Both the position numbers and the translations under genes were made by a program. Shown piece after piece: positions 2,047 through 34,764 of a stretch of DNA of 44,306 nt. Under the pieces are notes generated by a model, which saw nothing but the letters and a program-made list of their open reading frames with translations, did not search any database and was not told the DNA's origin. Within the stretch, counting starts at the first letter, position 1, and each line of letters opens with the position of its first letter. Source of the stretch: a delta proteobacterium ML8_F1 (GTDB taxonomy: Bacteria > Bacillota > Clostridia > Peptostreptococcales > Acidaminobacteraceae); contig LQBE01000054.1 of the NCBI GenBank assembly GCA_002029975.1, positions 1-44,306 on the forward strand, written 5' to 3'.

Positions 2047-2871
2047 TTCGAAAATCTTGTCGATTTTCGCCACCTCGCCACCAATGAATATCTTGTCAGC
2101 AAGAATCCTGAATCGGAGCAGACCCTTTAACGAGCCCTGACCCTGATGAATGATACCCTTTTCCCCGAGTCTACCCTCTTTTTCTCTGAGATAGGTGATA
2201 ACACTGTTGTTGGAGGTGCCCGTCGCAGACTCTTCGTCAATGCCATAAAGAGGAGCAAAATTTCTGACATGAATCACCCCCGGCTCCGCCATCGTGAAAA
2301 TGTGGCAACCCACCACGCCCAGCTTCCTGCTTATCCTTTTCATGCAATCTCTGTCGACTGTGATTCGATCCAGAATCTCCTTGGATCTGACAGGACAGAT
2401 GATGTCGCTGATTCCGGTGGCATAGATCCTGGGGGACATGCCCTCAAGAAAAAGGTCCTCCCACGGGACACCAAGAGCCTCATTGAGACCCTCCCCATCT
2501 ACAAGCTCTTTCACAAGGCGGGCCTTCCCAAGATGAATGTAAAAAAGTCCTTCTTCATGGACTGCTTCGACTGCTCCACCCTTCGTCTGGACCCTGTCGA
2601 GAACAATCCCCCAGTGTTCCTTGATAAAATGGAGCCCCGCCAGGGTCCCGTGGCCACAGAGGGCCACTTCCTCAACAGGAGTATAAAACTCCATGGAAAA
2701 TACGCCGTCATTTTTTTTGACAAAGACAGTTTCCGAAAGCTTTGCACCTGTTGCAATTTTTTGCTTGGCATCCCGGCTCAAGCCCTGGTCTTCGATTACG
2801 AGAGCGCCATTGCCACCGGTTCCCCTGGAACTGAACACATCATAGTACTGATAGCTGCAAGAATGTTCCAC
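2041..2871 (-). CDS. PhzF-family isomerase-like protein
   Basis: Protein of 276 aa related to the PhzF/diaminopimelate-epimerase fold. Visible family marks are the N-terminal YYDVF segment, SETVF near residue 53, the CGHGTL motif, and an ATGTSNNS segment where the family has a conserved ATG(S/T) loop. True PhzF acts in phenazine synthesis, but most family members have unknown substrates and nothing here suggests phenazine genes. GTG at 2871 is chosen because GGGGAGG precedes it at good spacing and the protein then begins where the family begins; an in-frame ATG at 2913 has no ribosome binding site. The gene follows parB by about 50 nt and is probably its cotranscript. Its start codon lies inside a parS-type palindrome. 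Confidence 0.8.
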   Translation of the reverse strand: MEHSCSYQYYDVFSSRGTGGNGALVIEDQGLSRDAKQKIATGAKLSETVFVKKNDGVFSMEFYTPVEEVALCGHGTLAGLHFIKEHWGIVLDRVQTKGGAVEAVHEEGLFYIHLGKARLVKELVDGEGLNEALGVPWEDLFLEGMSPRIYATGISDIICPVRSKEILDRITVDRDCMKRISRKLGVVGCHIFTMAEPGVIHVRNFAPLYGIDEESATGTSNNSVITYLREKEGRLGEKGIIHQGQGSLKGLLRFRILADKIFIGGEVAKIDKIFEI

Positions 2872-2879
2872 GTGGAACC
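2864..2879. promoter_or_regulatory. parS: parS-type centromere site
   Basis: TGTTCCACGTGGAACC contains the 14-bp perfect palindrome GTTCCACGTGGAAC. It fits the conserved bacterial parS pattern (TGTTnCACGTGnAACA), differing at the last base, and is close to variants known as ParB sites. It lies just downstream of parB and covers the GTG start of the phzF-like gene. No second copy was seen in this window when looking for CACGTG cores. Confidence 0.85.
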
Positions 2880-2922: not shown

Positions 2923-3762
2923 CTATTTTAACAACAATTTGACGATTCTTTCAAGGTCTGATTCATCATAAAAATCAATTTGTATGTTTCCCTTTTTATT
3001 CTTCAACTTGATTTGAACCCTGGTTCCCAGCTGATCTTGTATCATTTCCTCCAGCTTCCTGACTTCTAGGTCAACTTTTTGGGGCTTGTTCTGTCTTTTT
3101 TCCGGTTTTTTTGCCTGGTTTTCCAGGCTTCTTACAGACCAGTTCTCCCTGGCCGCCCTTCGGGCCAGCCCAGTCTGCTTTTCCTTTGGGTAGGCAAGGA
3201 GTGCCTTGCCATGACCCGGGGTCAGCTCGCCGGATTTGATCATCTCCAGAATCTCCTCGTCAAGATCCAGCAAACGCACCATGTTGGTAATATAGGGTCG
3301 CGACTTCCCCACGGATTTTGACAGATCATTCTGAGTCAGCTGGTAGTTGGTCAGCAGCAATTTGTAGGCCAAGGCTTCTTCCACAGGATTGAGATTGTCC
3401 CGTTGGACATTTTCAATGATTGAGATTTCTGCTTTTTTGAGGTCATCATAGGTCCTCACAATGCAGGGAATTTCAGTCAATCCCGCCTTTCTCGCCGACC
3501 GCCACCGTCTTTCCCCGGCAATGATCTGGAACCCCTTGGACTCTCTGGTCACTATGATCGGCTGAATAACGCCGTTGACCTCGATGGAATCCTTCAGGGC
3601 CTCTAGCTTGCTTTCATCGAATGTTTTTCTTGGCTGATTTCTGTTGGGGTAAATGTCATCAATGCTGACTTGTAGAATCTGATCGCTTTCAAGAATCTGC
3701 TCTGAGATATCCCCATCCGGTATCAGGGCTCCCAATCCCTTGCCTAGTGCCCTTTTTTTCAC
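2923..3762 (-). CDS. parB: Chromosome partition protein ParB/Spo0J
   Basis: ParB of 279 aa, which binds parS, clamps DNA using CTP and loads SMC. The N-terminal MKKRALGKGLGALIPD is the usual ParA-contact region. It is followed by the ParB/Srx CTP-binding domain with GERRWRSAR (about residues 83-91), a helix-turn-helix region with a KSVGKSRPYITN segment, a Lys/Gln-rich linker, and a C-terminal dimerisation domain. The start is GTG, overlapping the parA stop by 4 nt (GTGA), with AAGGAG upstream, so translation is coupled to parA. The gene lies about 8 kb from dnaA, as is usual for parAB. A second ParB-family gene (noc-like) lies upstream of parA. Confidence 0.96.
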   Translation of the reverse strand: MKKRALGKGLGALIPDGDISEQILESDQILQVSIDDIYPNRNQPRKTFDESKLEALKDSIEVNGVIQPIIVTRESKGFQIIAGERRWRSARKAGLTEIPCIVRTYDDLKKAEISIIENVQRDNLNPVEEALAYKLLLTNYQLTQNDLSKSVGKSRPYITNMVRLLDLDEEILEMIKSGELTPGHGKALLAYPKEKQTGLARRAARENWSVRSLENQAKKPEKRQNKPQKVDLEVRKLEEMIQDQLGTRVQIKLKNKKGNIQIDFYDESDLERIVKLLLK

Positions 3763-4535
3763 TTCAGTTCATCTCCTTCAGCCCAGAGGAATTCCTCTGC
3801 CAGCTCCTTGTAGGCCAGAGCGCCCTTCGACCCCGGATCATAATCAAAAATGGAAAGACCGTAGCTTGGCGCTTCGGCCAGTCTCACATTTCTGGGAATA
3901 ATGGCATTGTAGACCTTTGCCTTGAAAAAATTTCTGACCTCTTCAGCCACCTGAATCGACAGGTTGTTTCTGGAATCGTACATATTCAGCACAATTCCCT
4001 GAATTTCAAGATTCTTGTTCAGATTCTTTTTCACCAGCCTGTAGGTATTCATCAACTGAGACACCCCTTCCAAGGCGTAAAACTCACACTGTATGGGGAT
4101 CACCACACTGTCCGCCGCCACCAGGGAATTGAGGGTCAGCAATCCCAGCGAAGGCGGGCAGTCAATGAAAATATAATCATATCTGTCCTTGACCCTGTCC
4201 GTGAGGTTCTTGAGCAAATACTCCCGATGCGCCATGGATGTCATTTCTATTTCAGCCCCCGCCAGGGAAATCGTAGAAGGAAGAATATCCAGTCCTTCTA
4301 TTTTCGTGGCAATAATACAGTCCGCTACATCTGCTTCCTCAAGTAGCGCTTCGTAGAGACTGTTGTCGATGGTGTGCTTGTCGATGCCAATGCCGCTGGT
4401 TGAGTTTCCCTGAGGGTCATTGTCGATCATTAGCACTTTTTTACCCAGTCCGGCAATAGCGACACTGAGATTAATCTGGGTGGTGGTCTTGCCTACGCCA
4501 CCCTTTTGATTGAATACCGAGATTACTTTACCCAA
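3759..4535 (-). CDS. parA: Chromosome partition ATPase ParA/Soj
   Basis: ParA/MinD-type ATPase of 258 aa. It begins GKVISVFNQ and continues with the deviant Walker A KGGVGKTT (about residues 10-17); Walker B is at DYIFIDCPPS. In the family it works with ParB on origin segregation and regulates DnaA. The start is TTG at 4535, because AAAGGAG lies 11 nt upstream and the protein then starts exactly at the conserved GKVI segment; a longer in-frame reading to 4592 would run through that ribosome binding site. It has its own likely -10 box at 4566-4571 and follows a terminator after noc, so parA-parB appears to be a separate transcription unit. Confidence 0.95.
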   Translation of the reverse strand: MGKVISVFNQKGGVGKTTTQINLSVAIAGLGKKVLMIDNDPQGNSTSGIGIDKHTIDNSLYEALLEEADVADCIIATKIEGLDILPSTISLAGAEIEMTSMAHREYLLKNLTDRVKDRYDYIFIDCPPSLGLLTLNSLVAADSVVIPIQCEFYALEGVSQLMNTYRLVKKNLNKNLEIQGIVLNMYDSRNNLSIQVAEEVRNFFKAKVYNAIIPRNVRLAEAPSYGLSIFDYDPGSKGALAYKELAEEFLWAEGDELK

Positions 4536-4716: not shown

Positions 4717-5484
4717 TCATTTAATGATTCTTATCACAATGGTGTACTCTTTTTCGTCCTCAGTAAGATCATAGTAGGCTTTGACCCCATGTCCGAGTAT
4801 CTCTTCGTAGGCTTTTTTGACCGTATTGATAATAATCCGGTAATTGTTGAATACCCCTTTTACTTTTTTCCTTTTTTTACCATTTGCTTCACATCTCATA
4901 GCCACCAGTTTTTCCGTGTCCTTGACACTGAGCCCTGATTGACTCGCCGTGTCAATGACCTGCAGCTTGTCCTGTTCATCTTTAAGATCCAACAGTGCCC
5001 TGGCATGGCGTTCTGTCAGGCCCGAGTGCTGGAGAGCCTCAATGACCCGGGGAGAGTGATTGAGTATTCTCAGTTTATTGGCAATGGTACTCTGGGATTT
5101 GCCCATGAGTTTTGATATCTGACCCTGGGTCAGTTTATGGGAATGCATCAAGCGCCTGTAGCTATTGGCTTCATCGATAAAATTAAGATCTTCCCGCTGT
5201 ATATTCTCAATCAGTGCCAGGGCGGCACTTCCGATTTCATTCACTTCATAGACAATCACTGGAATTTCCTCCAGTCCCACAAGCTTGGCCGCCCTCAAAC
5301 GGCGCTCCCCTGCTATCAATTCATAACCGGCATCCACGGTTCTGACAACGAGGGGTTGAATCAGCCCCACCTCCTGTATGGATGAGGCCAGCTCCTTGAT
5401 TTTCTCATGGTCGAAGGCCATCCTGGGTTGGTGGGGATTGGGTTTGATCAAATGGGTCTTGACTAAGCGGGATTCCTGTTTCAT
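4717..5484 (-). CDS. noc: ParB-family nucleoid occlusion-like protein (Noc)
   Basis: ParB paralogue of 255 aa with the ParB/Srx domain (KPNPHQPR at about 15-22, AGERRLRAAK at about 58-67) and a helix-turn-helix segment LTQGQISKLMGKSQSTIANK. Its position between rsmG and parA is that of Bacillus noc, whose product binds its own sites and blocks division over the nucleoid. Unlike B. subtilis Noc, the conserved domain begins almost at the start codon, so no N-terminal amphipathic membrane-targeting helix is visible. The start is the second of two adjacent candidates (ATG 5484, with GTG 5487 just before it), with AGGTGA overlapping the rsmG stop. It could instead be a second ParB; the context favours Noc. 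Confidence 0.85.
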   Translation of the reverse strand: MKQESRLVKTHLIKPNPHQPRMAFDHEKIKELASSIQEVGLIQPLVVRTVDAGYELIAGERRLRAAKLVGLEEIPVIVYEVNEIGSAALALIENIQREDLNFIDEANSYRRLMHSHKLTQGQISKLMGKSQSTIANKLRILNHSPRVIEALQHSGLTERHARALLDLKDEQDKLQVIDTASQSGLSVKDTEKLVAMRCEANGKKRKKVKGVFNNYRIIINTVKKAYEEILGHGVKAYYDLTEDEKEYTIVIRIIK

Positions 5485-5492
5485 CACATCAC

Positions 5493-11699: not shown

Positions 11700-12040
11700 C
11701 GTTTTTTTGTCTCCTGTCCTGTGGATAATTTCTTTCATTGGTGTTGTTTTTTGTGTATAATGTTGTTACTATAAAATTCTATTGTTGATAAGCTGATAAT
11801 TCAAATATTTCCTCCACATTTCAGAAAATTGTGGATAACACTGTGAATAACCCCTGTCTTATTCACAGATTTTGAGTTTTTCAAGCCTTTCGACTCTGAG
11901 GATACATCTTATCAACAATTTTGTAAACTGTTACCACTTTCAAAATCATCTATTGTTATCAACACCCCTTAACCCGTAACTGTGGATAATTCTCATACAG
12001 GATTTTTCCCACGGTTTGTGTATTATTCTGTTAGTAATTA
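11700..12040. other. oriC: oriC, rpmH-dnaA part: DnaA box cluster
   Basis: The intergenic region between rpmH and dnaA is AT-rich and carries DnaA boxes (TTATnCACA in either orientation). Minus-oriented boxes lie at 11720-11728, 11752-11760, 11830-11838, 11842-11850 and 11981-11989, and a plus-oriented TTATTCACA at 11859-11867. One-mismatch forms with TTATCAACA lie at 11783-11791 (minus), 11909-11917 and 11956-11964. The last boxes sit just before the dnaA leader, as expected for autoregulation. This is the upstream half of a bipartite Firmicutes-type origin. Confidence 0.92.
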
Positions 12041-33069: not shown

Positions 33070-34764
33070 ATGAAATTCAGTGAAATTGAATACAAGAGAC
33101 CGGATATAGAACAACTTAAAGGCCAAATGACAAAGGCGATTTCAAGAATCGAAGGGGCCCGCAGTGCCCGGGAACAGAATGAGTGGATCACTCACATCAA
33201 CGAGCTCAGAAAAAGTTATGACACTATGGAAAACCTGTGCTATATCCGTCATTCCATTGATACACAAGAACCCTTCTATGACAAGGAGCAGGATTTTTTC
33301 GATGAGTCGGGACCTGAGATTGCCGCAGTGGTTCAGCGCTTCTATGAAGCTGTCCTGGCATCGGAGTTCCTTGATGAACTCAAAACCCTGAGACCCCCCC
33401 ATTTTTTCAACCTGGCTGAAGTCCGGGTAAAGACCTTCAGTGACACGGTCATGGGAGAAATGCAAAGAGAGAATCAACTCATCAGCAGCTATGATAAAAT
33501 CATTGCTTCGGCAGAAATTGACTACGACGGGAAGCAGTTGTCTCTGGCGCAGCTGGGCCCCTATTTGACCCACAGAGACAGGGAAATCAGAAAATCCTCC
33601 CATGAGGCACTGAATGATTTCATGGCTTCAAGGGAGGATGAATTCGATCAGATTTTTGATGAACTGGTTCACTTGAGACACGCAGTGGCGGTTAAACTGG
33701 GGTATCAAAATTATGTGGAACTGGGGTACAAGAGGCTTGCCAGGACGGACTACACCCAGGAAGAAATTGAAAAATTCAGAAATGCGGTGTACCGTGATAT
33801 CACACCTCTTGGCAATCGACTGATGAAAAGACAGCAGGAAAGAATCGGCGTGGATTCACTGTATTATTATGACCTTGGCTATTCTTTCAAGTCCGGAAAT
33901 CCCATTCCTTCGGGAGATGACCATGAGATTGTGCAAAGTGCCCTGGAGATGTATAATGAATTGTCTGTGGAAACGGGAGACTTTTTCCAGGAGATGAAAG
34001 GTGGCGGGTTCATGGACCTTGCTGCGAAAAAATCAAAGGCGGCGGGAGGGTACTGCACCTTTATCCAGGACTTCAGGATGCCGTTCATATTTTCTAATTT
34101 CAACGGGACTTATCATGATGTGACGGTACTGACCCATGAATTCGGCCACGCTTTCCAAGTCTACTCGGGGAGAGAGATTGAAGAAATCGAACTGATCTGG
34201 CCGACCTACGAGGCGGCAGAGATTTTTTCCATGGGTATGGAGTTTATCACCTGGCCGTGGATGGGAAAATTTTTTAACCAAGATGAGGAAAAATTCAAAT
34301 TCATGCATCTGAGCGATGGATTGAAGTTCATTCCCTATGGAACTGCCGTGGATGAATTTCAACACCGGATTTACGAGAACCCTGAGCTGTCCCCCGATCA
34401 AAGGAAAAAAATATGGCGGGCGATAGAGAAGAAATATATGCCCTATAGAAATTACAAGGGCAATGCATACCTCGAGGGCGGAGGATTCTGGCACAGGCAG
34501 GGACACATTTTTCAAGTGCCCTTTTATTACATTGATTACGCACTGGCTCAAATATCGGCCTTTGAACTGAAGAAAAAATTTCAAGACAATCCCGGTGAAA
34601 CCTGGCAGGACTATTTGAATATGTGTGCTGTTTCCGGGAGCAGACCCTATAGTGAAATTCTCAGGGCGGGGAAACTTTCAAATCCTTTTGAAACTGATAC
34701 CATCAAGGACATAATCCGGGATATCGAAATGAGTCTGGATCAGATTGACGATTCCGACTTTTAA
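33070..34764 (+). CDS. M3-family oligoendopeptidase (PepF-like)
   Basis: Zinc peptidase of 564 aa. The M3 motif HEFGH is at about 356-360, with the third ligand Glu in the following helix (YEAAEIFSMGME). GHIFQVPFYYIDYALAQ near the C terminus is typical of the PepF/oligoendopeptidase F branch. No signal peptide is visible, so it is cytoplasmic and likely degrades short peptides. It lies between serS and glnS, close enough to be cotranscribed with serS. Confidence 0.92.
   Translation: MKFSEIEYKRPDIEQLKGQMTKAISRIEGARSAREQNEWITHINELRKSYDTMENLCYIRHSIDTQEPFYDKEQDFFDESGPEIAAVVQRFYEAVLASEFLDELKTLRPPHFFNLAEVRVKTFSDTVMGEMQRENQLISSYDKIIASAEIDYDGKQLSLAQLGPYLTHRDREIRKSSHEALNDFMASREDEFDQIFDELVHLRHAVAVKLGYQNYVELGYKRLARTDYTQEEIEKFRNAVYRDITPLGNRLMKRQQERIGVDSLYYYDLGYSFKSGNPIPSGDDHEIVQSALEMYNELSVETGDFFQEMKGGGFMDLAAKKSKAAGGYCTFIQDFRMPFIFSNFNGTYHDVTVLTHEFGHAFQVYSGREIEEIELIWPTYEAAEIFSMGMEFITWPWMGKFFNQDEEKFKFMHLSDGLKFIPYGTAVDEFQHRIYENPELSPDQRKKIWRAIEKKYMPYRNYKGNAYLEGGGFWHRQGHIFQVPFYYIDYALAQISAFELKKKFQDNPGETWQDYLNMCAVSGSRPYSEILRAGKLSNPFETDTIKDIIRDIEMSLDQIDDSDF

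Follow-up and report, generated by a model that had tools for sequence, protein, structure and literature searches.

A chromosomal parS site, apparently the only one in its genome, lies on the probable start codon of a phzF-like gene behind parB

The stretch of DNA analysed here (the window; 44,306 nucleotides) contains, at 2864-2879, what is very probably a genuine chromosomal parS, apparently the sole copy in its genome and, judged by its sequence, a likely binding site for the ParB protein encoded alongside. The following phzF-like gene very probably starts at the GTG at 2871-2869, on the minus strand and within the CACGTG core of this site. A chromosomal parS is an element of a known kind; the unusual part is a start-codon overlap that is conserved and recurrent. 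We consider it likely that an ordinary ParB loading site has been packed into the initiation region of the next gene, apparently with no dedicated regulatory role.

The site reads TGTTCCACGTGGAACC at 2864-2879. Scored against TGTTNCACGTGNAACA, which we take to be the parS consensus, the match reported in a preliminary description of this DNA stands: the single mismatch is the final, outer base, and the inner 14 bp, GTTCCACGTGGAAC, form an intact and perfect palindrome, flanked on the plus strand by T and C. In the window, the exact 16-mer was matched twice at up to three mismatches, the two matches being the two strands of this one site (0.24 expected), and shuffled sequence reached two matches in 3 of 100 trials. 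The degenerate consensus at the same tolerance also gave two matches, the other at 33665, with a mean of 1.44 by chance and thus no excess; because this count is at chance level, the case for parS depends on the near-perfect match. A genome-wide search for further CACGTG-core sites, which the same description had proposed, returned 2864-2879 alone at one mismatch or fewer, with none for a reversed-pattern control, in an assembly of 2.38 Mb that is 98.8% complete. At two mismatches or fewer there are four places, including this one (ten for the reversed pattern), and intact CACGTG is absent from the other three. The assembly consists of 58 contigs, and a further parS may lie in one of the gaps between them. 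The consensus match with its intact inner palindrome, the position close to oriC and parAB (43 bp from the parB stop, with a cluster of DnaA boxes and dnaA about 9 kb away) and the retention of the site in relatives are those of a chromosomal parS.

The start of the window is a normal origin-proximal region. A minus-strand run of a noc-like parB paralogue (4717-5487), parA (soj; 3759-4532; AAA_31, 2.9e-71), parB (chromosomal ParB/Spo0J type; 2923-3762) and the PhzF-family gene is followed by convergent lipA and lplA; the genes preceding noc are presumably rsmG, mnmG and mnmE, named from their protein sequences, and nine DnaA-box-like 9-mers (at most one mismatch) at 11720-11989, upstream of dnaA, mark the presumed oriC. 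ParB carries ParB_N, HTH_ParB and ParB_C domains, all over the gathering cut-off, and ParB_C is found in it and not in the noc-like paralogue. ParB scores 184.5 bits with the NCBIfam model TIGR00180 (cut-off 58.45); its top score, 217.8 bits, is with the Noc model TIGR04285 and lies under that model's cut-off of 315, as does the 290.7 bits of the noc-like paralogue.

Aligned to 6t1f, in Caulobacter numbering, ParB has R173 and G201, the residues of the parS-specific type, and the paralogue has Q173, K179, N184 and R201, the Noc type being Q173, K179, K184 and R201. At position 204 ParB has K, not the R whose contact is conserved in both ParB and Noc; the change is conservative and lowers certainty about affinity, not about family. 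NBS-like sites, counted with what we take to be the Noc consensus, number 16 in the genome at one mismatch or fewer (four of them perfect; control 0). As the residues split in the published way, and with 16 NBS-like sites against none in the control, the DNA specificities of ParB and the noc-like paralogue look separate. Site 2864-2879 itself was rejected as a Noc site: the 16 NBS-like sites are distinct from it, and none was found within two mismatches anywhere in the 44 kb of the origin-proximal window (0.58 expected by chance). A search of plasmids with the phzF-parB-parA region gave 45 records; among the 20 listed, coverage of the query does not exceed 16% and falls in parA.

The gene behind parB occupies 2041-2871 on the minus strand, and its start region is interleaved with the site. 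The minus strand reads AAAGGGGAGG-GTTCCAC-GTG-GAA-CAT, in which the Shine-Dalgarno GGAGG (2883-2879, inside AAAGGGGAGGG at 2888-2878) is separated from GTG by the 7-nt spacer GTTCCAC. GGAGG and parS share one base, the last of the former and the first of the latter, and from there parS runs through the entire spacer, the GTG and codon 2 to the second base of codon 3. The preliminary description had called this GTG the best start of a phzF-like gene lying about 50 bp behind parB, and the analysis agrees on each count: 51 nt separate the parB stop (2925-2923) from GTG, the GGAGG is suitably placed, the register is common to two related genomes, and the 276-aa frame opened by GTG matches PF02567 (PhzC-PhzF) with E 6.4e-32, at 111.6 bits against a gathering cut-off of 27 (TIGR00654, 111.4 against 76.2). 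The ribosome-binding-site spacing it gave, 3-5 nt, has to be corrected to 7 nt. A contig search with the PhzF protein yielded one distant match, from Cloacimonadota, 27% identical. Two other frames were set aside: an in-frame upstream ATG (2913-2911) has no visible Shine-Dalgarno and no counterpart in the congener described below, and a plus-strand frame crossing parS (2146-2931) is best read as a shadow of phzF.

The GGAGG-spacer-parS-GTG layout of the window's own genome (G000) is also present in a congener (G001), and its GTG register in a genome of a second genus (G004); their PhzF proteins are respectively 71% and about 45% identical to that of G000. Counted from GTG, the VF conserved in the first strand falls at residues 12-13 in each of the three, and GGAGG is invariant. 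In the three-genome alignment from the parB stop to GTG, only GGAGG and the left arm of parS stay invariant over more than two consecutive columns. The sole difference within the inner site, in G004, pairs a C/T change in the left arm with a G/A change in the right and so keeps the palindrome, a covariation that amounts to one pair of changes in an overlap with phzF common to only three genomes of two genera. The start codon and Shine-Dalgarno by themselves could account for some of this conservation.

In G004 the distance from GGAGG to parS is 27 nt longer, and these extra nucleotides form a perfect inverted repeat of 10 bp around a 7-nt loop, lying between Shine-Dalgarno and parS/GTG (L082:9170-9216, equivalent to L017:1501-1547, minus strand). 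Fold prediction gives this hairpin -12.2 kcal/mol, and a comparable inverted repeat appeared, at any position, in 31 of 20,000 mononucleotide shuffles of the 130-nt stretch. With the hairpin looped out the spacing is 7 nt, as in G000, and the predicted structure thereby supports GTG as a real start. Part of the G004 GGAGG is weakly paired in the same predicted fold, and a non-standard ATA near the Shine-Dalgarno may serve as an alternative start. In starts of the T4 gene 38 type, an mRNA hairpin brings a distant Shine-Dalgarno near the start codon. G004 is possibly another natural hairpin-bridged ribosome site, alike in that it may use a looped-out hairpin and different in that its start codon also lies within parS.

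Sites with at most one mismatch occur in 34 of 41 genomes, our own included, some of them lacking CACGTG. Among 29 loci around such sites in relatives, 19 are 3' of parB, four are just upstream of parA and six have no detected par gene. A survey of the order covered 130 of the 186 genomes in which parB was matched (30 loci returned in full and 100 more taken from the further matches listed); members of one genus are not independent in these counts, and three of the 130 stretches end early at contig ends (L135, L151, L174). Between -100 and +700 of the parB stop, a CACGTG-core parS is present in 51 of the 130 loci and absent from 79, and 37 of the 69 sites recorded start 0-24 bp beyond the stop. 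A parS just 3' of parB is thus a common habit of the order.

A phzF-like gene follows parB on the same strand in 13 of the 130 loci (families f1, f2, f5 and f11), similarity beginning 2-433 nt past the stop, and parB-adjacent phzF is also found in three genomes of family f6 (G029, G092, G040). The f6 genomes have their parS, TGTTTCACGTGAAACC, within the phzF coding frame near codon 100, where it encodes F-H-V-K-Q (L080:6222-6237, L081:5549-5564, L086:5484-5499). In G115, G105 and G095 parS stands ahead of phzF's own ATG. A tree of 35 PhzF proteins (the rows of G105 and G022 were poorly filled after the trimming rule) groups the 12 parB-adjacent proteins of f2, f5, f6 and f11 in a single supported clade (99/96), suggesting an old and unexplained parB-phzF neighbourhood. 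The proteins of G000, G001 and G004 form another clade, on a branch so long that their relation to the rest, and with it the choice between one and two origins of the neighbourhood, is uncertain.

The overlap itself was searched for as GGAGG followed by a parS-like GTG, found in 10 of 393 genomes of the order and 6 of 391 of the class, at 14 distinct loci. A full parS, a long frame from GTG and a parB neighbourhood come together only in G000, G001 and G295; L088, L089 and L091 lack a full parS but are likely gene starts, and at the other loci the frame from GTG is short. In G295 the gene behind parB starts at the GTG of parS with GGAGG 6 nt upstream (TAGGAGG-TTTCAC-GTG), and this gene, examined by eye, looks like a lipoprotein gene. 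The parB stop, Shine-Dalgarno, parS and GTG start of G295 all fall within about 20 bp (L097:1499-1519). The order survey holds ten loci with a frame of at least 60 codons open from the parS GTG. Five of these were rejected as parS starts because a methionine follows in frame no more than 11 residues on (G105, G095, G007, G213, G044); G012 and G046 have no Shine-Dalgarno match at the GTG, and in G012 an ATG directly abuts the site (ATG-TTT-CAC-GTG). Start-codon overlap is therefore rare, yet it recurs with at least two different genes.

ParB proteins load at parS as CTP-dependent clamps and slide outward. Here ParB made from the adjacent gene would load in this way at 2864-2879 and slide outward to build a partition complex near oriC. 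The same bases would serve the ribosome, the left half-site as the spacer between Shine-Dalgarno and start, the core as GTG, and the right half-site as the second codon and part of the third. The position of parS within the initiation region of the parA-parB-phzF run was presumably inherited, and the overlap may have begun as an economy of space, later fixed, parS offering GTG on both strands just where the next gene must begin. From then on the site would be held by two constraints, ParB binding and translation start; as both act on the same bases, its conservation can be explained without a regulatory role. ParB reads double-stranded DNA, and a start codon as such should be meaningless to it for that reason, whereas position relative to a promoter would matter.

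The preliminary description had raised the possibility that ParB bound here represses phzF and feeds back on its own neighbour. In one version of this, ParB on parS would block or dim transcription into phzF, and phzF expression would report ParB occupancy. We think this unlikely. A regulatory role requires a promoter whose transcript crosses parS, and the candidate is weak: TTGAAA-18-TAAAAT at the 3' end of parB (2925-2954, minus strand), the only match of the scan near the parB-phzF gap; G001 has a like one. If the match is real, parS would lie about 40-55 bp downstream of the start point, the position of a roadblock. The scan found three such matches in 2.7 kb, however, where shuffles give 2.6, so that the match is no commoner than by chance, and it lies within parB codons; in G004 the match there reaches only 9 of 12, and of such matches the stretch has 12 where 14.0 are expected. 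The GTG register kept across two genera and the repeated presence of phzF-like genes behind parB (the 13 of 130 loci and the three f6 genomes) speak for regulation, but exact placement of parS is not a rule, given the upstream sites of G115, G105 and G095 with their own ATG and the in-gene sites of f6.

Precedent is similarly divided. According to two reports, P. aeruginosa ParB represses promoters beside intergenic but not intragenic parS: the intergenic parS3 and parS4, upstream of PA0011 and PA0013, lower expression of the adjacent genes, and intragenic parS1/2 leave their neighbours unaffected at native ParB level (PMC5521831, PMC7022226). The same reports describe parS-adjacent genes of B. 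subtilis as unaffected by loss of Spo0J, and effects on parS neighbours in V. cholerae and S. pneumoniae as small or limited (PMC7022226, PMC5521831). ParB regulation of phzF is thus possible, by analogy, because of the Pseudomonas precedent. The fullest form of the idea makes the single centromere double as an operator: ParB that loads there would gate phzF as a transcription roadblock (possibly together with an mRNA hairpin), in a feedback between assembly of the partition complex and a metabolic enzyme, with the arrangement kept since the ancestor of the two genera and arisen separately with another gene in G295. It seems to us equally unlikely.

It is more improbable still that the palindrome acts in mRNA, GUUCC-ACGU-GGAAC folding over the start codon to lower phzF translation independently of ParB. 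The 22-nt piece around parS is predicted to form a 5-bp stem with an ACGU loop at -6.5 kcal/mol in G000 (where the fold includes three extra flanking pairs), -6.1 in G001 and -3.8 in G004, and covarying arms would also keep an RNA stem; a hairpin at the start codon may, on such folds, lower translation. Any parS would yield this hairpin, however, the sequence fits parS rather than an arbitrary stem, and the best predicted fold of the wider region in G001 lacks it. That a Shine-Dalgarno-GTG start merely resembles parS is very improbable, for even though a Shine-Dalgarno with TTYCACGTGRAA occurs at the likely gene starts L088, L089 and L091, without full parS or any par gene in the locus, the site here is unique in its genome, stands beside parB where relatives have parS and has both arms kept in three genomes.

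Taken as an ordinary parS within an initiation region, the 16 bp would act in DNA partition and as a protein start at once, a compact merger of centromere and translation signal. A parS can be a start codon because it gives GTG on both strands, and it apparently is one for at least two different genes. As things stand, the finding is mainly a caution for gene-start annotation around parB; should ParB prove to affect phzF, a genome whose single parS lies on a start codon would be a clean natural setting in which to ask whether partition complexes regulate the genes beside them.

Among known systems, P. aeruginosa parS3 and parS4 are alike in lying near the start of a neighbouring gene; in the parts of those reports available, they are intergenic rather than on a start codon, and it is for those sites that regulation was measured. 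The ten sites of C. glutamicum (parS1-10), nine intergenic and parS1 within a coding sequence, show likewise that parS can sit in coding DNA, and the accessible text describes none on a start codon (PMC7083940). None of the titles and abstracts listed in literature searches, which took in few subscription journals, reports a parS so placed. There is also a likeness to the B. subtilis Spo0J and C. crescentus ParB type, with its 16-bp CACGTG-core palindrome near oriC and parAB and a ParB bearing R173 and G201. The present site differs from that type in being a single clear copy, and in sharing bases with the Shine-Dalgarno, the GTG start and codons 2-3 of parB's downstream neighbour.
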